From assembly GCF_003050785.1 (NCBI RefSeq), contig NZ_QAOH01000001.1:62001-126000 (forward strand): a stretch of 64,000 nt of DNA, in the 5' to 3' direction. Below, in pieces: positions 712 to 51,707 of this stretch. The position numbers were made by a program, and so were the translations under genes. The DNA is from Celeribacter persicus (GTDB lineage: Bacteria; Pseudomonadota; Alphaproteobacteria; Rhodobacterales; Rhodobacteraceae). The notes beneath the pieces are model-generated. The model saw only the letters and a program-made list of their open reading frames with translations. It did not search any database and was not told where the DNA came from. Each line of letters starts with the position of its first letter. Positions within the stretch are counted from its first letter, which is position 1.

Positions 712-3700
712 TCACATCTTGAAGATGCGATAGATCGCCGGGATGACCAGAACCGTCAGAGCGGTCGAGGACAGAAGCCCAAAGAACAGCGACAGCGCCA
801 GCCCCTGGAAGATCGGATCGGCGAGGATCACCGCCGCCCCGATCATCGCCGCCACGGCGGTCAGCAGGATCGGTTTGAAGCGCGTGGCTCCCGCCTCGAT
901 CAGAATCTCCGTCGTCACCTTGCCCTCGTCATCGGCGTTGCGGATGAAATCGACCAGAAGGATCGAGTTCCGCACGATAATCCCCGCCAGCGCGATGAAC
1001 CCGATCATCGAGGGCGCGGAGAACGGCGCATTGAACAACCAGTGCCCGATGATGATACCGAGGAAGGTCAGCGGCACCGGGGTCAGGATCACCAGCGGCA
1101 GACGGAAGGAACCGAACTGCGCCACCACGAGGATGTAAATCCCCAGAAGCGCCACACCGAAGGCCGCTCCCATGTCGCGGAACGTGACCCAAGTCACCTC
1201 CCACTCACCATCCCAAAGAAGCACCGGTTTCGACGTGTCGGTCGGTTGACCATGAAGTGAAATCTCCGGCTTCATCCCTTCGGGCCAGTCCATCTCGTCG
1301 AGCTTGTCGGCCACGGCGAGCATACCGTAAAGCGGAGCCTCATAGGTTCCGGCCAGTTCCGCCTGAACCATTTCCGCGTCATAGCCGTTGTGCCGGAAGA
1401 TCGGGTAGGAGGTGGTCTCCTCCGTGATCTCCACTACATCGCCCAACTCAACCACGCCACGCCCACCGGGCAGCGCATCGGCCGGAACCGGCGTCGACAG
1501 CGCCGCGGCATCCATCACGCGGTCAGACTTGTCCCGCCCGACCACGATCGGGATCGGACGTCGGCCCTCGCCACGATGCGAATAGCCGATCGTGGAATAG
1601 CTGTTGAGATATTGCAGAGTCTGCGCGGCATCGGCCTCCGCCACCTGATAGAAGTTCAGATCGGACGGCTTCATCTCCGCCCGGAGACGTCGGGCCTGTT
1701 CGCCATAGCTGTCATCGGTGTCGACAATGAAATCGACGCTCTCGAAGGCTTCGCGCACCTTGTCGGCCACGGCACGGCGGGTGTCCCCGTCCGGGCCGTA
1801 GATTTCGGCCAGAAGCGTCGAGATCACCGGCGGTCCCGGCGGCGGTTCGACCACTTTCATCGCCGTGCCCGGCGGCACGGTAATTCCGCTCAACAGCATC
1901 TCCCGAAGTTCGAGCGCGATATCGTGCGAGGTCCGGTCGCGCGCATGTTTCGGCAGAAGCTTGAGCTGTACCTCGCCCATCTGCGGATATTCCCGCAGAT
2001 AATAGTGCCGCACCAAGCCGTTGAAGTTGAACGCACCGGGCGTTCCCGCATGGGTCTGCGCCGAAATCACCTCCGGCAGGGTCATGGCAAGACGCGCCGC
2101 CTCCTGTGCCACCGCATCGGTCGCCTCGACCGAGGAGCCCTCGGGTAGGTCGATCATCACGGAAAGTTCGGATTTGTTGTCGAACGGCAGGAGTTTCACC
2201 GTAACATGCTTGGTATAAAGCGCGCCGAGCGAGCCGAAGGACAGCACGATGACAACCAGCAGGAAGATCCAGGCATGGCCCTTACTGTGCAGCACCGGGC
2301 GCGCAATGGTGGCGTAGATCTTGCCGAGCCTGCCACCGGGCACCTCGCCTTCCACATGCTCGCCGTCATGATGCAACTCCGCCCGACCCGCGATTTTCAG
2401 CATCAGCCAGGGCGTGATCATCACCGCCACGAAGAAGGAAAAAATCATCGCGGCAGAGGCGTTCGCCGGGATCGGCGACATATACGGCCCCATCATGCCC
2501 GACACGAAGAGCATCGGCAAAAGCGCCACCACCACGGTCAGCGTCGCGACGATGGTCGGATTGCCCACCTCCGCCACGGCGGCCACGGCAGCCCCGAACC
2601 GGTTCTGCCCCGGACGTTTCATGCCCCAGTGCCGCGCGATGTTCTCGATCACCACGATGGCGTCATCGACGAGAATCCCGATGGCGAAGATCAGAGCGAA
2701 AAGCGACACACGGTTGAGCGTGTACCCCATGATATAAGAGGCAAAAAGCGTCAGAAGGATGGTCACCGGGATCACGATGGCAACTACGACAGCCTCGCGC
2801 CAGCCGATGGCGATGAGCACGAGACCGACGATGGAGAGCGTCGCGAGGCCAAGGTGGAACAGAAGTTCATTGGCCTTTTCATTGGCGGTCTCGCCATAGT
2901 CGCGGGTCACTTCGACGGACACGCTGTCGGGGATGATCTCGCCCTTCATCGTCTCGATGCGATGCAGGATTTCATCGGCCACGACGACCGCGTTGGCGCC
3001 CGCGCGTTTGGCAATCGCCAGCGTCACCGCCGGACGACGGATCACCGGCGCATCAAGATCGACGGTTGCGTGTTCGCCCTCGTCCGCCTCATGTGCACCT
3101 TCACGGGTCAGGGTCGCGACATAGTGCTCGTCGAGATCGGAGACAAAAGCGACATCAGCCACATCCCGAACATAAACCGTGCGCCCGTCGCGTGCGGTGA
3201 GCTCGAGATTGCCGATTTCCTCGGGTGTGGTCAGCGTCTTGCCCACGATCAGGCCGATCTGTTCGCCACCTTCGCGCAACATGCCGGTTGGGGCGGCGGA
3301 GTTCGCCCCCTGCACCTTGTTGACAAGCTGTTGCAGCGTGATGCCATAGAGCGCCAGTTTCTCGGGATCGGGAGCCACCCGCAGCGCCTCCTCCGTCCCC
3401 CCGATCACATAGGTCAAACCCACGTTTTCGATCTGTGAGAGCCGGGTTTCGACTTCCTTGACGACCCGCGTCAGATCGGCGGCATTCATGTCAGGGTTGT
3501 TTTCGTTCGGCGAGAAGGTCAGCGCCACGATGGCCACGTCGTTGATGCCGCGCCCGACCACCAGAGGTTCTTCGATCCCCACGGGCAGGCGGTCGAGATT
3601 GGCCATGATCCGGTCGCGCACCCGCACGATGGCGGTTTCCGACGGCACGCCGACTTCGAAACGGGCCGTGACCATGATGGTGTCATCATTGCTCTGGGAA

Positions 3701-43024: not shown

Positions 43025-43084
43025 CTGATGCAGGTCAATAATAAGTATGCTTACGGAATTGACTCAGATCAATAGTAAGTATAC
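43025..43084. promoter_or_regulatory. Tandem 26-bp repeats with FNR-like cores
   Basis: Two direct copies at 43025-43050 and 43059-43084 agree at 20 of 26 positions and start 34 bp apart. The second opens with TTGACTCAGATCAA (43059-43072), an exact FNR consensus; the first opens with CTGATGCAGGTCAA, one base off. Both continue TCAATARTAAGTATRC. They lie between the divergent MarR gene and the TRAP operon and may bind FnrL, the MarR protein, or both. Confidence 0.6.
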
Positions 43085-43136
43085 CCATTATATTGGCGCA
43101 ACGGGAGTGCGCCCAGAGACAAGAGGAGGAGCTCAC

Positions 43137-44189
43137 ATGAATCTCAAGGCCAAATTGCGCGGCACCCTTGCCGCAGCGACCATCGCCGCAATTTCCGGCA
43201 CAGTCACCGCCACGTCCGCCTTCGCACAGGACGTCACGCTGATCCTGCACCATTTCCTGCCGCCGGTGTCCAACGCCCATAAGGTGATGCTGGAACCTTG
43301 GGCCGAAAAGGTCAAGGCCGACAGCGACGGGCGCATCGAAGTCCAGATCTACCCGTCCATGTCGATGGGCGGCAAGCCGGGCGAGCTTTACGGCCAGGTC
43401 CGCGACGGCACCGCCGACGTCGTCTGGACACTTCTGGGCTACACGCCGGGCGTATTCCCGCGCACCGAGGTGTTCGAACTGCCGACCGTGCATAAGGGCT
43501 CCGCGACCGACACGACCATCGCACTGAACGCATCCATGGATATGCTGGCCGAAGATTTCGAGGACATTCACGTCCTGTTCCTCCATGCCAATGACGGCAA
43601 CCTGATCCATTCGGGCGGCAAGGAAGTCACCACCTTCGAGGACGTTGCGGGCATGAAGCTGCGCACGCCATCCCGCACCGGGGCCTGGCTGATCGAGGCG
43701 CTCGGCGCCGAACCCGTGAGCCTGCCCGTTCCGGCCGTGCCCGAGGCCATGTCGAAAGGTGTGATCGACGGCGCGATGACCACCTATGAAATCGTGCCCT
43801 CGCTGAAACTTCAGGAACTCGACAAATACACCGCCGAGCTGCCGAATGGCGACCGTTTCGGCACCGCCGTCTTCATGCTGGCAATGAACAAGGACGTCTA
43901 TGACGACCTCCCCAACGATCTGAAAGCGGTAATCGACGCCAATTCCGGCATGAATGTCGCCGCCGAGATCGGCACCATGTGGGAGGATTTCGAAGTGGCC
44001 GGCACCGACGCCCTCGACGCCGCCGGCGTGACCCGCAACGTTTTCTCCGAAGAGGAAGCTGCAAAATTCTACGACGTGAGCGAACAGGTCGTTGCCCGCT
44101 GGGTTGACGAAGTGTCTGCAAAAGGCATCGACGGCGCTGGCCTCGTCGACGCCGCCCGCGCTGCGATTGCCGCGGCGCATACCGAATAA
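43137..44189 (+). CDS. TRAP transporter substrate-binding protein (DctP), 3-hydroxybenzoate operon
   Basis: 350 residues with a clean Sec signal (AAATIAAISGTVTATSAFA, cleavage before QDVTL). The DctP ligand segment is MKLRTPSRTGAWLIEALGAE, with the conserved arginine. It shares the opening HHFLPPVSN and IYPSMSMGGKPGELYGQV with the DctP at 39623, so the two are paralogues. The probable ligand is 3-hydroxybenzoate or a related acid, by operon content. GGAGGAG precedes ATG 43137. A hairpin follows the gene. Confidence 0.9.
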   Translation: MNLKAKLRGTLAAATIAAISGTVTATSAFAQDVTLILHHFLPPVSNAHKVMLEPWAEKVKADSDGRIEVQIYPSMSMGGKPGELYGQVRDGTADVVWTLLGYTPGVFPRTEVFELPTVHKGSATDTTIALNASMDMLAEDFEDIHVLFLHANDGNLIHSGGKEVTTFEDVAGMKLRTPSRTGAWLIEALGAEPVSLPVPAVPEAMSKGVIDGAMTTYEIVPSLKLQELDKYTAELPNGDRFGTAVFMLAMNKDVYDDLPNDLKAVIDANSGMNVAAEIGTMWEDFEVAGTDALDAAGVTRNVFSEEEAAKFYDVSEQVVARWVDEVSAKGIDGAGLVDAARAAIAAAHTE

Positions 44190-44213
44190 CGACCGCAAGA
44201 GTCGTCCAAGACC

Positions 44214-44240
44214 GGAGAGGCGGGTCTCGCCCGTCTCTCC
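44214..44240 (+). other. Hairpin between dctP and dctQ
   Basis: GGAGAGGCGGG (44214-44224) and CCCGTCTCTCC (44230-44240) pair over 11 bp with one G-U and a 5-nt loop. No T-run follows, and dctQ starts 42 bp later. Such hairpins after binding-protein genes usually raise their expression relative to the permease genes. Confidence 0.65.
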
Positions 44241-44282
44241 CCCATAACCCCGAAACACGCACCCAATACCGGGAGGCATGCT

Positions 44283-44780
44283 ATGTACGCTGTTGTCACG
44301 CGTCTGGCAGATTTCTTTGCCATGCTCGGAGGCGCCATCCTCTTTGTCATCGTTCTGGTCACCACCACGAACACCGGCGCCTTCATTCTCGATCGGTTTC
44401 TCGGCCCCTTTGGCCTCAACGTCTCTGGCCTTCCCGGCTATGAAGATTTCGTTCAGCTCGCCATTTCCGGTGCAGCTCTGATGTTCTTTCCTTTCACCCA
44501 GGCCTCGCGCGGGCATGTGGCCGTCGATCTCTTCGTCGCCAATGCGCCGATGCCGGTGAAATGGCTTCTGGACCGCATGTGGTTGACGCTCACCGCCGGA
44601 GTCGCGCTGTTTCTGGCGTGGTGGATGGTGCAGGGCATGCTTGAGGTGCGCTCCGACGCTGTCGAGGCCGGTGTTCTGGGCTGGCCGATCTGGCCGTTCT
44701 ATTTCCCCGGTATCGCCTCCATGATCCTTTGGGCCATCGTGTCCGTCAGCCAGATGTTCGGAGACGCACGCTATGCTTGA
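44283..44780 (+). CDS. TRAP transporter small permease (DctQ), 3-hydroxybenzoate operon
   Basis: 165 residues with four hydrophobic helices; DctQ features include YEDFVQLAISGAALMFFPFT and SRGHVAVDLFVANA. It overlaps the dctM gene by 8 bp. Its long first periplasmic loop (ILDRFLGPFGLNVSGLPG) is absent from the DctQ at 39080. Confidence 0.88.
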   Translation: MYAVVTRLADFFAMLGGAILFVIVLVTTTNTGAFILDRFLGPFGLNVSGLPGYEDFVQLAISGAALMFFPFTQASRGHVAVDLFVANAPMPVKWLLDRMWLTLTAGVALFLAWWMVQGMLEVRSDAVEAGVLGWPIWPFYFPGIASMILWAIVSVSQMFGDARYA

Positions 44781-46164
44781 TCCCATCACCATCGGGGTTC
44801 TGGGCCTCATCATCCTTTTCGTCCTTCTGATCCTGCGCATGCCGGTCGGCATCGCGATGATCATCGTCGGCATCGGCGGCACCTATGTGCTGTCGCTCGC
44901 CCTGCCCTATGTGCGTTTCGTGCCCTATATCCGGCAGTTCAAGACGCTCCTGTGGGAGAACGTCGCAAGCTATGACCTCTCGGTCGTGCCGCTCTTTGTC
45001 CTCATGGGCTATATCGCCGCCGAAGCGCGGTTGTCGTCGGACCTGTTCAAGGGGCTTGAGGCGCTTCTGTCCCGCCTGCGCGGTGGCGTTGCCATGGCGG
45101 CGATCGCGGCCTGTGGCGGGTTCGGCGCGGTCTGTGGCTCGTCTCTGGCGACGGCGGCGACCATGGGCAAAGTGGCCCTGCCGGAACTCAAGGCGCTTGG
45201 CTACAAGGACCGCCTCTCCGCCGGTGCGCTGGCTGCGGGAGGCACGCTTGGCATCCTGATCCCACCGTCAGTGGCGCTGGTGATCTATGCGATCATCGTC
45301 GAGGGCTCGATCCTCAAAATGTTCCAGGCCGCCGTGCTGCCGGGTCTTCTGGCCGTACTCTCTTTCATCCTCGTGATCGCCGTTCTGGTCCGGGTGAACC
45401 CGTCGCTCGCTCCCGAGCCGCGCCCGATGGAGCGCGAAGAGCGCAACCGTGCGCTCAAACGCCTCTTCCCGGTGATCGGCATTTTCGGCGCGATCATTCT
45501 CGGGCTCGGTTTCGGCCTCTTCACCCCCACCCCCGCCGCCTCCATCGGCGTGTTCCTGATCGCTGTCTACGGCTTCATTCTGCGCGCCCGTACGGGCGAA
45601 GGGCTGAACTGGGACGGGCTGAAACGCGCACTGCATGCCACCGCGATTACCTCCGGCATGATCTACCTGATCCTGTTCGGCGCAGAAGTGCTCAAGGGCT
45701 TCTTCACCCGCTCCGGCCTGCCGCAGGCGCTCTCAGAGTGGGCGGCAAACTCCGGCATGGACCCGATGCTGGTGCTCGTCCTGATGCTGATCGCCTTTGT
45801 GATCCTCGGGTGCTTCATGGAAAGCCTCGCAATGATCCTCGTGGTGGTGCCGTTCTTCTGGCCGACCCTGATCGCGATGAATGGTGGCGAATATGTCACC
45901 GCCGACATGGCCGCCTTCGGGATGACCAATGAGGACCTGAAAATCTGGTTCGGCATTCTCGCGCTGATCGTCGTCGAGCTTGGGCTGATCACACCGCCCG
46001 TGGGGCTCAACGTCTTCATCATCTCTTCGCTCGCCAAGGACACGCCCATGTCCACCGTCTTCCGCGGCGTCATGCCTTTCCTGGGTTCCGAGATCATCCG
46101 TGTGGCCCTGATCATCCTGATCCCGGCGCTCACCCTCACCATTCCACGCCTCATAGGCGGTTGA
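44773..46164 (+). CDS. TRAP transporter large permease (DctM), 3-hydroxybenzoate operon
   Basis: 463-residue polytopic permease with DctM patterns YDLSVVPLFVLMGYIAAEAR, FGAVCGSSLATAATMGKVAL and GTLGILIPPSVALVIYAI. The C-terminal GLITPPVGLNVFIISSLAKD is matched nearly word for word in the DctM at 37758. Uptake of 3-hydroxybenzoate or gentisate is inferred from the following genes. It is 18 bp ahead of the hydroxylase gene. Confidence 0.92.
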   Translation: MLDPITIGVLGLIILFVLLILRMPVGIAMIIVGIGGTYVLSLALPYVRFVPYIRQFKTLLWENVASYDLSVVPLFVLMGYIAAEARLSSDLFKGLEALLSRLRGGVAMAAIAACGGFGAVCGSSLATAATMGKVALPELKALGYKDRLSAGALAAGGTLGILIPPSVALVIYAIIVEGSILKMFQAAVLPGLLAVLSFILVIAVLVRVNPSLAPEPRPMEREERNRALKRLFPVIGIFGAIILGLGFGLFTPTPAASIGVFLIAVYGFILRARTGEGLNWDGLKRALHATAITSGMIYLILFGAEVLKGFFTRSGLPQALSEWAANSGMDPMLVLVLMLIAFVILGCFMESLAMILVVVPFFWPTLIAMNGGEYVTADMAAFGMTNEDLKIWFGILALIVVELGLITPPVGLNVFIISSLAKDTPMSTVFRGVMPFLGSEIIRVALIILIPALTLTIPRLIGG

Positions 46165-46182
46165 CACATAAGGAGACACGTT

Positions 46183-47403
46183 ATGTCTGATCTTCCCATT
46201 ATCATTGCCGGTGGCGGCATCGGCGGTCTGGCGGCAGCCTGTGGTCTGGCGCGCAAGGGCCATCGCTCCATCGTCGTCGAGCAAGCCCCGGCGCTCGGCG
46301 AGATCGGCGCTGGCATCCAGATCGGCCCGAACGCCTTCCACTGCTTCGACTATCTGGGCGTGGGCGACGAGGCACGCGAAAAGGCGGTCTATATCGACAA
46401 GCTGCGTCTGATGGATGCGCAAACCGCCGAGGACATCACCTCGATCCCGCTCGACGAACCGTTCCGCGAGCGCTTCAAGAACCCCTATGCCGTGGTGCAC
46501 CGCGCCGACCTGCATGGCGTGTTGCTCAAATATTGCGAAGACAGCCCGCTCGTCGACATTCGCACCTCTCATGTGGTCGAAGGCTATGAGCAGGACGGCA
46601 CTTCCGTGACGCTCAAACTCAAAGACCGCGATCCGATCAAAGGGTCTTTCCTGATCGGCGCTGAGGGCCTGCGATCTCCGATCCGCGCCCAGATGGTGGG
46701 CGACGGCGAGCCGCGCATCTCCGGCCACACCACCTATCGCTCCGTCATCCCGACCGAGCAGATGCCGGAAGACCTGCGCTGGAACGCAGCGACGCTCTGG
46801 GCCGGTCCGAAATGTCACATCGTGCATTACCCGCTCAAGGGCTGGAAGGTTTTCAACCTCGTCGTGACCTATCACCGCGACGTGCAGGAAGCGATTGCCG
46901 GTCGTCCGGTCTCGAAAGAAGAGGTTGCCGCCGGTTTCGAGCACATCCACCCGAAAGCCCGTCAGGTCATCGAACATGGGTCTGATTGGAAACTCTGGGT
47001 GCTCTGTGACCGCGACCCGATTTCCAACTGGGTCGACAACCGCGTAGCGCTTCTGGGCGATGCCGCCCACCCGATGCTGCAATACTTTGCGCAGGGCGCC
47101 TGCATGGCGATGGAAGACGCCGTAGCCATGTCCCATTGCATCGAGCATTACGGCGAGAACGTCGAACGCGCGTTGCAAATCTATCAGGAGATGCGCAAGG
47201 TCCGCACCGCCCGCGTGCAGATGAACTCCCGTCTGATCGGCGAATACATCTACCACCCGGACGACGCGAAAGCCGCCGTGCGCAACCACGTTATGTCCAA
47301 CATGACGCCGGACGAATGGTACGACCAACTGTCGTGGCTCTATGGCTCCACCGGTCTCGATGAGAGCACCGTCAATGCCGCGCTGAAAACCGCTGCTGAA
47401 TAA
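46183..47403 (+). CDS. 3-hydroxybenzoate 6-monooxygenase
   Basis: 406-residue class A flavin monooxygenase. FAD motif IIAGGGIGGLAAACGLARKG at the N-terminus, DG motif in IGAEGLRSPIRAQMVGDGE, and GD motif ALLGDAAHPMLQYFAQGA. It should convert 3-hydroxybenzoate to gentisate with NADH; salicylate 5-hydroxylation is unlikely because that enzyme type is multicomponent. AAGGAG precedes the ATG. The gentisate ring-cleavage gene and two downstream pathway genes follow in the same operon, which supports the substrate. Confidence 0.88.
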   Translation: MSDLPIIIAGGGIGGLAAACGLARKGHRSIVVEQAPALGEIGAGIQIGPNAFHCFDYLGVGDEAREKAVYIDKLRLMDAQTAEDITSIPLDEPFRERFKNPYAVVHRADLHGVLLKYCEDSPLVDIRTSHVVEGYEQDGTSVTLKLKDRDPIKGSFLIGAEGLRSPIRAQMVGDGEPRISGHTTYRSVIPTEQMPEDLRWNAATLWAGPKCHIVHYPLKGWKVFNLVVTYHRDVQEAIAGRPVSKEEVAAGFEHIHPKARQVIEHGSDWKLWVLCDRDPISNWVDNRVALLGDAAHPMLQYFAQGACMAMEDAVAMSHCIEHYGENVERALQIYQEMRKVRTARVQMNSRLIGEYIYHPDDAKAAVRNHVMSNMTPDEWYDQLSWLYGSTGLDESTVNAALKTAAE

Positions 47404-47433
47404 CTCTTCAAGAAACGCAAAAAGGACAAACCT

Positions 47434-48132
47434 ATGGCTTATGTCTTCCCCTCCGCCGAGCCAGCCACCGTGGCCGTCGATGGCTCCGATGACCGTCTTC
47501 CGGTCCGCCGCATCTTCTGTGTCGGGCGCAACTACGCCGCCCACGCGCGCGAGATGGGCAGAGACCCGAATCGCGAACCGCCCTTCTTCTTCACCAAACC
47601 GGCCGATGCCGTGGTGGACAGTGGCGAAGTGGTCGCCTACCCGCCGGAGACCGAGAACTTCCACTACGAGGCCGAGCTTGTTGTGGTGATCGGCAAAGGC
47701 GGCAAGAATATCGCGGAAGAGAACAGTCTGTCGCACGTTTGGGGTTATGCTATCGGCAACGACCTGACCCGTCGCGACCTGCAACTCAAGGCGCGCGAAC
47801 AAGGCCGTCCGTGGGACTGGGGCAAAGCGTTTGACCGCTCTGCCGTGATCGGTCCGGTGTTCCCCGTCGAAAAAGTCGGCCACCCGGACAAAGGGTCGAT
47901 CAAGCTCACCGTGAACGGTGAAGTGAAACAGGATGCAGACCTGAACGAGCTGATCTGGTCCGTGCCGGAAATCATCTCGATCCTGTCGCACTCGATGACA
48001 TTGCAGCCGGGCGATCTGATCATGACCGGCACGCCTGCGGGCGTGGGCGCGCTTGTCGAGGGCGACACCTGCGTGGTCGAAATCGAAGGTCTGGGCCGGA
48101 TCGAGACCCCGATCGGTAAACGCGAGGCGTAA
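47434..48132 (+). CDS. Fumarylpyruvate hydrolase (FAA hydrolase family)
   Basis: 232 residues; final gentisate-pathway step, hydrolysing fumarylpyruvate to fumarate and pyruvate. It shows the FAH fold pattern [14 protein letters not shown], the metal-binding glutamates in [15 protein letters not shown] with a later aspartate in [10 protein letters not shown], and [15 protein letters not shown]. It starts 30 bp after the hydroxylase gene and ends 3 bp before the isomerase gene. Confidence 0.88.
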
Positions 48133-48135
48133 GCC

Positions 48136-48783
48136 ATGACGTTGAAGTTGCACAACTTCTTCCGGTCCTCGACGTCAACGCGGCTGCGTGCCGCGTTGAA
48201 CCTCAAGGGGCTGAACTATGACTATATTCCCTATGTGCTGCGCACCGGGGAAACGCGGACGCCGGAGTATCTGGCGAAGAACCCGCAGGGTCTGGTCCCC
48301 ACCCTTGAGCGCGAGGACGGCACTTACCTGACGCAATCTCTCGCCATCATGGAATGGCTGGAGGAGACCCACCCGGAGCCCGCGCTTTTGCCCGCCGATG
48401 CCGACGGTCGCGCCCGTGTCCGCGCGCTGTCCTACATGATCGCGCTGGAGATCCACCCGCTGAACAATCTGCGTGTTCTGTTCCGGCTGCGCGATCAGTT
48501 CGGAGCCGACGAAGAGGCGCAAAAAGAGTGGTTCACCCATTGGGTCACGATCACCTTCGATGCGCTGGAAGCCGAGCTTTCGGCGTCGAAAGACACCGGC
48601 ACCTATTGCCACGGCGATACGCCGACCATGGCCGATTGCTGTCTCTATGCACAGGTCTGGAACAACAAACGCTTTGGCGTTCCGTTGGAGTCCTGGCCGG
48701 TGATTTCGCGGATTTACACGGAACTCGACAAGCTCCCGGCGTTCACCAAAGCCGCGCCGCCCAATCAACCCGACGCGGCCTGA
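48136..48783 (+). CDS. Maleylpyruvate isomerase, glutathione-dependent (zeta-class GST)
   Basis: 215-residue glutathione transferase of the zeta class: FFRSSTSTRLRAALNLKGL corresponds to the SSCSxR active-site motif, and NPQGLVPTLERED to the glutathione-binding loop. It isomerises maleylpyruvate to fumarylpyruvate; the same fold also handles maleylacetoacetate, but the gentisate genes on both sides favour maleylpyruvate. The next gene but one encodes a homologue of the unrelated mycothiol-dependent isomerase. Confidence 0.86.
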   Translation: MTLKLHNFFRSSTSTRLRAALNLKGLNYDYIPYVLRTGETRTPEYLAKNPQGLVPTLEREDGTYLTQSLAIMEWLEETHPEPALLPADADGRARVRALSYMIALEIHPLNNLRVLFRLRDQFGADEEAQKEWFTHWVTITFDALEAELSASKDTGTYCHGDTPTMADCCLYAQVWNNKRFGVPLESWPVISRIYTELDKLPAFTKAAPPNQPDAA

Positions 48784-48814
48784 CGCGTCATTCTTAACCC
48801 GGAGGAATTTCACG

Positions 48815-49921
48815 ATGCTGACCGAAGATCGCAGCCACGATACTATCGAGCATGGCATGCAGCCGGAGGACACCCCGGAACTGCGCGCCCTGTACAAGAG
48901 CTTCGAGGAAGAGAGCCTGATCCCGCTCTGGACCCAGCTTGGCGACCTGATGCCAATGACCCCGAAATCCAAGGCCGTGCCGCATGTCTGGCGTTGGGCC
49001 GATCTTCTGCCGCTGGCGGAAAAATCCGGTGAGCTGGTGCCCGTGGGCCGTGGCGGCGAACGCCGCGCCATCGGCCTCGCCAATCCGGGTCTGGGCGGTC
49101 ACGCCTATGTCACGCCGACGCTCTGGGCCGCGATCCAGTATCTCTGCCCCGGCGAGAATGCGCCCGAGCACCGGCACAGCCAGAACGCCTTCCGCTTCGT
49201 CGTTGAAGGCGAAGGCGTCTGGACCGTCGTCAACGGCGATCCGGTGCGCATGTCGCGGGGCGATTTGCTCCTGACGCCAGGCTGGAACTTCCACGGCCAC
49301 CACAATATCGCGAATGAGCCGATGGCATGGATCGACGGGCTCGACATTCCGTTCAGCCAACAGATGGATGTGGGTTTCTTCGAGTTCGGTGCGGATCGTG
49401 TGACCGACAATGCAACGCCGGACTTCTCCCGTGGCGAGCGCCTCTGGTGCCATCCGGGCCTTCGTCCGCTGTCGCAATTGCAAAACACCGTCTCTTCGCC
49501 GATCGGCGCCTATCGCTGGGAATTCACCGACCGGGCGCTGACCGAACAGCTTTTGCTGGAAGACGAAGGCCAGCCCGCCACCGTCGAACAGGGCCACGCC
49601 GCGATCCGCTATGTCAACCCAACCACCGGCGGCGATGTGATGCCGACGATCCGCTGCGAATTCCACCGCCTGCGGGCCGGTACGGAAACCGCGACGCGCA
49701 ACGAAGTCGGGTCCACCGTGTTCCAGGTCTTTGAGGGCAAAGGCGCCGTAGTGATGAACGGCGTGGAGCACAAGCTTGAGAAAGGCGACATGTTCGTCGT
49801 GCCATCCTGGGTGCCGTGGTCCTTGCAGGCCGAAACACAGTTCGATCTGTTCCGCTTCTCGGACGCGCCGATCATGGAACGCCTCGGCTTCATGCGTACC
49901 ATGGTCGAAGGGCAGAAGTGA
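48815..49921 (+). CDS. Gentisate 1,2-dioxygenase
   Basis: 368-residue bicupin that cleaves gentisate to maleylpyruvate using Fe(II). The first cupin has the metal motif APEHRHSQNAFRFVV (H119, H121) and a further histidine in GWNFHGHHN. The second cupin (VFQVFEGKGAVVMNGVEH; DMFVVPSWVPWSLQAE) lacks a full metal set, as is usual. Length is normal. GGAGGAA precedes the ATG. Its stop overlaps the next start by one base. Confidence 0.93.
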   Translation: MLTEDRSHDTIEHGMQPEDTPELRALYKSFEEESLIPLWTQLGDLMPMTPKSKAVPHVWRWADLLPLAEKSGELVPVGRGGERRAIGLANPGLGGHAYVTPTLWAAIQYLCPGENAPEHRHSQNAFRFVVEGEGVWTVVNGDPVRMSRGDLLLTPGWNFHGHHNIANEPMAWIDGLDIPFSQQMDVGFFEFGADRVTDNATPDFSRGERLWCHPGLRPLSQLQNTVSSPIGAYRWEFTDRALTEQLLLEDEGQPATVEQGHAAIRYVNPTTGGDVMPTIRCEFHRLRAGTETATRNEVGSTVFQVFEGKGAVVMNGVEHKLEKGDMFVVPSWVPWSLQAETQFDLFRFSDAPIMERLGFMRTMVEGQK

Positions 49922-50472
49922 TGTCTCTCACAGAGACGGACCTTGCCGCCCGCGAGGCTTTGAGGGCGCGTCTGGGCAAGGGGGCGCGGTTCGACGCCCC
50001 CAACGCACCGGCGGAAGACCTTCTGCTGGCTCGACGCGGTACGGCCTATTTTGCCCGCAAACTGATGGAATTGTCGGACGAGGCGCTTTTTGAGCCCTCT
50101 GCTGTCGAGGGATTGAGCCGCGCCCATGTGATCGTGCGCGTGAGCTATGAGGCCCGTTATCAAGCGCTGGCGCTCGAAGCATTGGACAAGGGCGAAGTGC
50201 TTGAAATCCCCGAGGACCTGCCCTCTCTCGATCTCGCCGCCACGCTTCCGGCCCGCGCGCTCCGCCACCTGTTCCAGCATTCCGAGGTGCATCTCAACGT
50301 CTGTTGGCGCGATCTCTCAGAGGCGCAGTGGGACATGGATCTCGTGCTGGCAGACGGCACGAAAATCACACCCCGCGCCCTGCCCATGATGCGCGCCAAA
50401 GGCGTCTGGCAAGGGGCGCTCGATCTCGGAAGCGGCGCACGGCTCAAGGACATCCCTGCAAGCCTGCGCTAA
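49921..50472 (+). CDS. Maleylpyruvate isomerase (MDMPI) N-domain-like protein lacking the zinc ligands
   Basis: 183 residues, coupled to gentisate dioxygenase by TGATG. Two stretches match the DinB-like fold of mycothiol-dependent maleylpyruvate isomerase: LSRAHVIVRVSYEARYQAL (65-83), corresponding to the WTRGHVxAHLA helix, and RALPMMRAKGVWQGALDLG (152-170), corresponding to PWMRxREVWIHAVDLG. In the characterised Corynebacterium enzyme zinc is held by H52, E144 and H148. The aligned positions here appear to be R73, G161 and G165. The C-terminal domain of the roughly 240-residue enzyme is also missing. A catalytic isomerase role is therefore unlikely, and the operon already has a GST-type isomerase. 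The function is unknown; the alignment was made by eye. Confidence 0.7.
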   Translation: MSLTETDLAAREALRARLGKGARFDAPNAPAEDLLLARRGTAYFARKLMELSDEALFEPSAVEGLSRAHVIVRVSYEARYQALALEALDKGEVLEIPEDLPSLDLAATLPARALRHLFQHSEVHLNVCWRDLSEAQWDMDLVLADGTKITPRALPMMRAKGVWQGALDLGSGARLKDIPASLR

Positions 50473-50502: not shown

Positions 50503-51639
50503 TCATTCTGCAAGCAGATGCTCGTACCGCGCATCCGTAAGTGTCTTCATAAAGGCCACCAGCGCGTCGATTTCCCGATCCTCAAGCGCCGGACCGGTCT
50601 CCAACTCTTCCATCGAGATATTTTCCGCCACTTCGGGCGGGCCGAAACGCTCGCCGGTCTCCGGGTTGATCATCCGCGCCTCGGATTTGGTGTTGTAGGT
50701 GTTGTAGAACAGCACGACCGTGCGCAGGTCCTGAAACACCCCGTTGTGCATATAAGGCGCTGTCACGGCGATGTTTCGAAGCGTCGGCACCTTGATCTTG
50801 CCTTCGAGCCCTGCCGTCTCCGACAGCATGTCGTTTTGCGCCAGCCCGAGATCGGGATGCCCGCGCCCCACCCCGTTCATATCACGCAGCTCGCCATTCT
50901 CCGGCACGCCGATGTTGTGATATTCATAATTGGTGAAGGTCTCGCCTTCCGCCCCCGCCTGCGGCTTGAGCTGATGACAAAGATTGCAATTGGTGAACTG
51001 CTGCGAGAAAAACAGCGTCTCGCCCAGCAGTTCTTCCCGCGTCAGCTCCACTTCGCCGCGCAGATAGCGGTCGTATTTGCTGTCGAACGGCGAGAAGAGA
51101 TCGGTCTCCTCAAAGGCGGCAATCGCCTTGGTCATCGCGGCATAAGCCGCGTCCTTGTCGGCAAAAATCTCATCACCGAAGAGATCCTTGAAAGCCACGA
51201 CATAGGCCGGATTTTCCTCCAGCCGCGCCACCACGGACCCCGCGTCCGGCATCCCCATCTCGATCGGGTTCAAAGGCGGTCCGCCCGCCTGATCGGCAAG
51301 CGTTGCGGCGCGACCGTCATGAAACTGCCCACCCATGTAGACGCCTTCGTCGAGCTTCTGGAACATCGGCGCGAAATGCGCGTAGGAGGCGGTCGGCGCA
51401 TTGCGGTCGCCCAGAGACACACCGTCGTCGCCGGGAGAGGCCATGCCGCGCGGATCGGCGAAACCATATTCGGGATCGTGACAAGTCGAACAGGATTGTG
51501 TTCGGTTCTTGGACAGATTTTCATCGAAGAATAGCGCTTCGCCGAGGGTTTCAAGCGTGTCGAAGTTCTCGGCCTGCAATGCCGCAGACGAAAGGAGCGT
51601 GGTGCAAAACAGGGTCAGTGCGAGGGGTCTGGCGATCAT
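50503..51639 (-). CDS. Di-haem cytochrome c peroxidase
   Basis: 378 residues with a Sec signal peptide (IARPLALTLFCTTLLSSAAL) and two c-type haem motifs, CSTCH (50-54) and CNLCH (218-222). The family pattern RTQSCSTCHDPEYGFADPRG, the FHDGRA motif and PYMHNGVFQDLRTVV are present. It reduces periplasmic H2O2 with electrons from a small cytochrome c. MauG-like relatives cannot be fully excluded. ATG 51639 is chosen because the signal peptide begins there. A perfect FNR box is centred about 75 bp upstream, which fits microaerobic induction. Confidence 0.88.
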   Translation of the reverse strand: MIARPLALTLFCTTLLSSAALQAENFDTLETLGEALFFDENLSKNRTQSCSTCHDPEYGFADPRGMASPGDDGVSLGDRNAPTASYAHFAPMFQKLDEGVYMGGQFHDGRAATLADQAGGPPLNPIEMGMPDAGSVVARLEENPAYVVAFKDLFGDEIFADKDAAYAAMTKAIAAFEETDLFSPFDSKYDRYLRGEVELTREELLGETLFFSQQFTNCNLCHQLKPQAGAEGETFTNYEYHNIGVPENGELRDMNGVGRGHPDLGLAQNDMLSETAGLEGKIKVPTLRNIAVTAPYMHNGVFQDLRTVVLFYNTYNTKSEARMINPETGERFGPPEVAENISMEELETGPALEDREIDALVAFMKTLTDARYEHLLAE

Positions 51640-51707
51640 GAGCGCAGTGCTTTCCGAATGGCTTTGGGCGGATGGAACCGCCTTACCCGAGTTTTTCACT
51701 CGGAAAT

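Follow-up and report, generated by a model that had tools for sequence, protein, structure and literature searches.

The last gene of a gentisate operon encodes a zinc-less relative of mycothiol-dependent maleylpyruvate isomerase (MDMPI), here called MDM, which probably acts as a pseudo-isomerase serving the gentisate dioxygenase encoded immediately upstream. We put the probability of this reading at roughly 0.6. In the alphaproteobacterial family to which MDM belongs the zinc site is almost always broken, other residues are strictly conserved, and the gene accompanies one type of gentisate dioxygenase and not the other.

The operon and its last gene

The window (the whole 64,000-nucleotide stretch of DNA that was analysed) contains the following features.

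43047..46164, + strand: TRAP-type uptake system, three ORFs (380, 165 and 463 aa), assigned from translations alone
46183..47403, + strand: 3-hydroxybenzoate 6-monooxygenase (HB6H); NF006021, 581 bits, cut-off 459
47434..48132, + strand: fumarylacetoacetate hydrolase-family protein (FAH), probable fumarylpyruvate hydrolase; PF01557, 219.5 bits
48136..48783, + strand: GST-type maleylpyruvate (maleylacetoacetate) isomerase (GST); TIGR01262, 257 bits, cut-off 171.05
48815..49921, + strand: gentisate 1,2-dioxygenase (GDO), salicylate 1,2-dioxygenase-like type; PDB sequence comparison and profiles
49921..50472, + strand: zinc-less MDMPI_N protein (MDM), 183 aa, last operon gene; ORF, Pfam, phmmer and model
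49969..50010, + strand: MDM N-terminal arm, codons 17-30 (R.G.GAR.D...AP); alignments and model pLDDT
50137..50139, + strand: MDM R73 codon, at the position of zinc ligand H52; alignment and Foldseek
50401..50403, + strand: MDM G161 codon, at the position of zinc ligand E144; alignment
50413..50415, + strand: MDM G165 codon, at the position of zinc ligand H148; alignment
50503-51699, - strand: di-haem cytochrome c peroxidase/MauG-type gene, convergent with MDM; Pfam

The whole operon spans 43047-50472 in the order TRAP ORFs, HB6H, FAH, GST, GDO and MDM. MDM closes it, because the cytochrome c peroxidase/MauG-type gene that follows is convergent, and the TGA stop codon of GDO (49919-49921) shares one base with the MDM ATG (49921). 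Coordinates and neighbours therefore agree with a preliminary description of this DNA, which had placed MDM last in a gentisate operon, overlapping the dioxygenase gene by one base; the GST-type isomerase that it had assigned to the same operon scores well above the TIGR01262 cut-off. Judging from the operon, the exact substrate of FAH is probably fumarylpyruvate. The solved dioxygenases nearest to the window GDO are 3nst and 2phd (E 1.8e-224 and 7.7e-224; the next groups follow at 1.5e-64 and 1.1e-50), both of which we take to be the P. salicylatoxidans enzyme, and the P. salicylatoxidans gene region (locus L033) is 86% identical. Against TIGR02272 the window GDO reaches 280.5 bits, under the cut-off of 442.1. 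Elsewhere in this genome, at C17:15097-16110, lies another gentisate dioxygenase, which is 38% identical and belongs to the other type; the only copy of MDM found is that of the window.

Pfam locates an MDMPI_N domain (PF11716) at residues 38-168 of MDM (26.8 bits against a gathering score of 24.2; E 9.2e-6), and in a phmmer search with E up to 10 the sole matches among PDB sequences were 2nsf (E 2.4e-19) and 2nsg (E 3.4e-19). Against the mycothiol-dependent family model TIGR03083 the score is 17.7 bits, short of the cut-off of 50. In the phmmer alignment, residues 72, 164 and 168 of the 2nsf chain stand opposite R73, G161 and G165 of MDM. They equate to native residues 52, 144 and 148 if the 261-residue chain has 20 extra N-terminal residues, which fits a native length for C. 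glutamicum MDMPI that we take to be 241, and H52, E144 and H148 are presumably the zinc ligands of that enzyme. The entry 2nsg, entitled 'H52A mutant', differs in sequence from 2nsf exactly at the R73 column. MDM ends where the C-terminal domain of the C. glutamicum enzyme would start, and residues 1-30 are treated as an arm because the C. glutamicum alignments begin only at MDM residue 31.

An AlphaFold2 model of MDM from a 71-row alignment (pLDDT 93.2, pTM 0.84) has pLDDT values of 74-85 for residues 1-30 and at least 93 for most others; a single-sequence prediction was set aside (pLDDT 40.8). The two best Foldseek matches to this model were 2nsg (E 1.3e-10) and 2nsf (E 4.5e-10), with a TMq of 0.75, ahead of ClbS, YfiT and DinB-type proteins. 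The preliminary description had regarded MDM as an MDMPI relative that has lost both its zinc site and its C-terminal domain, and had suggested a profile search and a structure comparison. Its account is upheld: MDMPI_N lies above the gathering score, 2nsg and 2nsf head the Foldseek results, all three ligands are replaced, and the ORF stops at 183 aa with a convergent gene beyond it. MDM thus resembles C. glutamicum MDMPI (NCgl2918/Cgl3021; 2nsf/2nsg) and Rhodococcus NagL in fold, N-terminal domain (E 2e-19), pathway and gene neighbourhood, but differs from the C. glutamicum enzyme in its zinc ligands, its missing C-terminal domain, its extra N-terminal arm, the adjoining GST-type isomerase and a host with no MshC above cut-off. 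The DinB/YfiT/BstA/ClbS superfamily has the four-helix bundle in common with MDM, but is remote (6-17% identity among the Foldseek rows shown) and occurs in other contexts.

The thiol genes of the hosts agree with what the preliminary description had supposed, namely the use of glutathione and not mycothiol. Glutathione synthase was above cut-off in 13/13 alphaproteobacterial and 0/5 actinobacterial genomes, whereas the mycothiol ligase MshC was above cut-off in 0/13 and 3/5, respectively. In the window genome glutathione synthase passes its cut-off, and the best that the MshC model attains is 278 bits, under the cut-off of 485. All 18 genomes contain at least one such match to the MshC model below cut-off, and these are presumably cysteinyl-tRNA synthetases. 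An ergothioneine-dependent reading was dropped, the accessible part of a review naming lincomycin biosynthesis as the sole known case with ergothioneine as cofactor.

Ligand changes and the history of the family

We assembled a family set of 90 sequences, consisting of the best 80 of 250 confirmed loci, nine plasmid loci and the window, with loci chosen in the scan by patterns at MDM residues 17-26 or 37-46. Leaving out L026, whose open frame ends early, gave 77 alphaproteobacterial and 12 actinobacterial rows; four duplicates were removed from the former for triad and column counts, leaving 73 distinct sequences. The zinc triad HEH is whole in just one of these 73. They display 46 different triads, in which none of the ligands is kept in 38 sequences, one in 13, two in 21 and all three in 1. 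Among actinobacterial rows HEH is found in 33/34 (12/12 from the family set and 21/22 relatives near actinobacterial GDO genes), the odd one out being HER at locus L117. The sole alphaproteobacterial HEH sequence of the set, a 224 aa protein from Actibacterium ureilyticum (L100, 6001-6672), is encoded beside a GST-type isomerase. Extra C-terminal length is kept in 11 alphaproteobacterial sequences of at least 222 aa (12 of at least 215 aa); the triad is HAH or HVH in five of these, and the long proteins appear to be intermediates of decay.

A tree of 97 rows was built with the three ligand columns removed; it included 8 of the 22 fetched actinobacterial relatives and was rooted on four rows of clade B, the MDMPIs of loci with a GDO 57-71% identical. 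All 77 alphaproteobacterial rows lie on one side of a branch (support 79/90, not starred), and the alphaproteobacterial MDMs form a well-supported group (100/99) with actinobacterial enzymes that also bear the arm. The latter (from Georgenia, Janibacter, Rhodococcus p52, Saccharomonospora and Microbacteriaceae) have the arm, the 23 invariant columns described below and the GDO type in common with MDM, but retain HEH in 13/13, are longer, and are found in loci where FAH lies between GDO and the isomerase and no GST was found. The minimum numbers of state changes for the three ligands on the tree are 11, 9 and 6, a count that does not distinguish loss from gain; loss is the plausible direction. 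The sequences indicate descent from a zinc enzyme of the actinobacterial MDMPI family that still had its full metal site. In alphaproteobacteria the ligands were then lost time and again, as was the C-terminal domain in most sequences, and selection continued to act on the remainder of the protein. The earlier proposal that the operon carries two isomerase lineages, one of them disarmed, consequently extends to the whole family, with one intact triad in 73 and repeated ligand changes on the tree. Proteins that carry a maleylpyruvate isomerase annotation in these genomes probably do not have that activity.

Linkage to one dioxygenase type

We searched 292 genomes from the order and 289 from the class whole, scoring up to 10 candidates per genome for MDM, a procedure that a very divergent copy could escape; 344 genomes from the actinobacterial class were searched for GDO. 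Within the order, gentisate dioxygenases form two classes, 19 of them 74-100% identical to the window GDO and 35 at 34-39%. MDM lies directly downstream of 18/19 of the former, which are salicylate-dioxygenase-like (one of the 18 copies, in genome G256, is a short open frame), versus 0/35 of the other GDO loci. The genomes of the class repeat this pattern (3/3 versus 0/64) and, with the window genome counted once, MDM accompanies 20/21 salicylate-dioxygenase-like GDOs and 0/98 other gentisate dioxygenases. The actinobacterial genomes yielded 43 GDO matches, for which 40 loci were retrieved: an arm-bearing or arm-related MDMPI is present in 7/7 loci with a GDO of at least 72% identity and a clade-B MDMPI in 15/21 at 57-71%, while at 50% or below an MDMPI is present in 0/12. 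Fifteen GDO columns separate the arm-partnered from the clade-B-partnered enzymes, which we treat as a lead only.

The sole exception to the linkage is locus L107 of genome G224, an HB6H-FAH-GDO operon of the salicylate-dioxygenase-like type. No MDM was found in this genome at the search threshold, with up to 10 candidates scored, and no GST match was found in the 10 kb around GDO. The idea of a relaxed GDO in G224 (7/198 conserved columns changed, including R195 and T197) was rejected after a leave-one-out control without near relatives: with 7 deviations this GDO shared ranks two to five among 94, which indicates no special relaxation.

The order of the genes tells the same two partners apart from the rest. 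In the 77 alphaproteobacterial loci (from the best 80 of 250, nine plasmid loci and the window, without L026, start codons being chosen by script) MDM follows GDO in 76/77, and the two genes overlap start to stop in 57/77 (by four bases in 42, by one base in 15). A GST of at least 40% identity is present in 65/77 and FAH in 70/77. Nine gene orders are seen in 75 loci of this set, and GDO and MDM adjoin in 75/75; FAH and GST come before the pair in 50 and after it in 12, GST alone comes before it in 1, and GST was not found in 12. Distances were also compared across 58 loci with all four genes (L026 and L061 left out; 300 permutations; shared ancestry not removed). The partial correlation of MDM distances was 0.458 with GDO (0/300 permutations as high), 0.085 with GST (25/300) and -0.030 with FAH (219/300). 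FAH and GST distances correlate with each other at r 0.948 (58 loci), and this pair shifts as a block relative to the GDO-MDM block. Adjacency, together with co-variation with GDO and not with GST or FAH, therefore places MDM in the ring-cleaving module and not in the isomerase module of its ancestor.

These results bear on a scaffold role, in which MDM would hold GDO beside the GST-type isomerase and help to pass on maleylpyruvate. Such a role would suit the frequent presence of GST in the loci and an ancestor that acted on the same product, but no GST gene was found in 12/77 loci, the partial correlation with GST is low and no GST gene was found near the intact relatives in actinobacterial loci. 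We consider it unlikely.

Several loci depart from the common layout. L036, L040, L043 and L051, which belong to the 12 without GST, are HB6H-GDO-MDM units in which neither FAH nor GST was found. L061 (Rhodobacteraceae MAG NORP153, 2288-3628) has GST followed immediately by MDM and no GDO in 9.6 kb, the only such locus of the 77. L026 and L108, on Paracoccus albus plasmid p2, encode a full-length, 92% identical GDO and an MDM frame of 99 aa, with partial matches to FAH and GST and insertion-sequence genes nearby. The MDM sequences of L018 (an Agrobacterium plasmid) and L033 (Pseudaminobacter salicylatoxidans) are identical, marking a mobile gentisate cluster; that of L018 is annotated cehG/cehH/cehI (salicylyl-CoA to gentisate).

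Conserved residues and a candidate partner of the dioxygenase

Six Celeribacter pairs give MDM a dN/dS of 0.072-0.146, and 7/8 other alphaproteobacterial pairs one of 0.06-0.23; the eighth gives 0.40 at a dS of 0.03, which is too low to trust. For the same pairs GDO gives 0.010-0.060. MDM exceeds its neighbours in dN/dS in 14/15 alphaproteobacterial and actinobacterial pairs of usual dS, and its median distance is 0.82 versus 0.21 for GDO. MDM is thus constrained, but less so than its neighbour, and remains under purifying selection.

The 13 arm-bearing actinobacterial enzymes share 94 invariant columns, of which the three ligand columns are the 6th, 11th and 21st most variable in the 73 alphaproteobacterial MDMs (from the best 80 of 250 loci, nine plasmid loci and the window). 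By comparison, 23 columns are invariant across the 73; 8 of these lie inside the search patterns and 15 outside, conservation at residues 17-26 and 37-46 being partly circular because the scan selected on those patterns. Six more MDMs obtained by profile search (L109-L114) keep R79, R115, H120, H124, R130 and D131, as judged by eye. Five of them have the arm motif GAR.D...AP, and L112 has GARHDAAAAP instead; L109 is without G40 and L110 without the helix before the arm. Clade-B MDMPIs have the reverse pattern, with all three zinc ligands in 15/15 but H120, H124 and R130 each in 0/15 and D131 in 1/15, whereas H120, H124, R130 and D131 are all present in 77/77 alphaproteobacterial rows. Catalytic and conserved non-catalytic residues thus dissociate both ways. 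The C. glutamicum chain is intermediate, with Arg at columns 38, 46 and 130 and His at 120, but R at 124 and E at 131; part of the Arg/His set therefore predates the alphaproteobacterial group.

Could MDM nevertheless be an enzyme that acts on maleylpyruvate, or on a similar product of ring cleavage, by metal-free or altered chemistry? The DinB/MDMPI folds host diverse chemistry (ClbS and mycothiol S-transferases are among the Foldseek matches), D168, opposite D151 of the C. glutamicum enzyme, is kept in 55/73 alphaproteobacterial MDMs, and in one host, Nisaea genome G618, no GST-isomerase match was found at E <= 1e-20. Against this, no new pocket has been fixed at the former ligand columns, because these rank among the most variable, and the window MDM is without the C-terminal domain, which we take to supply some active-site residues in MDMPI. 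Continued catalysis is accordingly quite improbable in our estimation. Since a disarmed enzyme can retain ligand binding, MDM might in principle regulate or sense the pathway through a bound ligand, but the Pfam search of MDM gave no DNA-binding domain, several clusters have separate IclR, LysR, MarR or TetR regulators and the pocket columns vary freely, which makes this very unlikely. Least credible of all is a dying relic carried along by linkage. MDM evolves fast and can be lost, as the short frame of L026 and its absence from G224 attest; however, dN/dS is 0.06-0.23 in 13/14 alphaproteobacterial pairs (the other being the 0.40 at low dS), 23 columns remain invariant with the catalytic site lost, and the start-stop overlap is retained in most loci.

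The strict adjacency and overlap with the GDO gene would also suit an obligatory maturation factor that loads iron into GDO. Passages of two papers argue otherwise, in that E. coli yields active, iron-loaded dioxygenases of this kind with no partner co-produced (PMC13280823, PMC4585797): P. salicylatoxidans salicylate dioxygenase (SDO) from BL21(DE3) contained about 70% iron after purification and served for kinetic measurements (PMC13280823), and the gentisate dioxygenase of Martelella AD-3, presumably of the salicylate-dioxygenase-like type, was likewise active (PMC4585797). Genome G224, moreover, has GDO without MDM. MDM is probably not strictly required for GDO folding or iron uptake, and we regard an obligatory maturation role as very improbable. 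On the strength of these two enzymes, of G224 and of the MDM without GDO at L061, a partner that stabilises, protects or tunes GDO is favoured instead. Among the roles that the preliminary description had offered, the tie to GDO is favoured, given the linkage and co-variation, and that of a strictly required maturation factor is disfavoured by the passages of those papers and by G224.

As a pseudo-isomerase serving the dioxygenase, MDM would have arisen as follows. A GDO and MDMPI pair may have been acquired from an actinobacterium by a host without mycothiol, in which the isomerase chemistry would be useless and the isomerisation step would be taken over by the GST-type isomerase. MDM would have been retained because GDO and MDMPI already interacted, and would now bind GDO and either stabilise or protect it in the cell or tune its activity. 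Candidate contact or structural residues are those of the arm at the N-terminus and the Arg/His/Asp set carried by two helices, both of them conserved. We infer both the direction of transfer and the contact between GDO and MDM. A fuller version, to which we give somewhat less than even odds, starts from an actinobacterial GDO-MDMPI complex whose catalytic half decayed in parallel many times after transfer to glutathione-using bacteria while its binding half was kept, so that cofactor loss would have made a metabolic enzyme into a structural partner that looks obligate, giving a two-protein GDO with a pseudo-isomerase subunit in Rhodobacterales and Hyphomicrobiales.

Pseudoenzyme partners are known to tune active enzymes, as in the trypanosomal AdoMetDC prozyme. 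There, too, a disarmed enzyme is kept beside an active partner, but that partner is an active homologue, whereas MDM would be paired with an enzyme of its pathway to which it is not related. A survey of the open-licence literature by title found no account of a zinc-less MDMPI in alphaproteobacterial gentisate operons. If the proposal is true, a natural partner has been missing from years of work on dioxygenases treated as single proteins; the P. salicylatoxidans region, source of the textbook salicylate 1,2-dioxygenase, also carries MDM. The family would also document, step by step, how an intact enzyme became a disarmed partner, because some members retain one or two ligands or extra C-terminal length. 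Such intermediates make it possible to test whether catalysis or binding is lost first.
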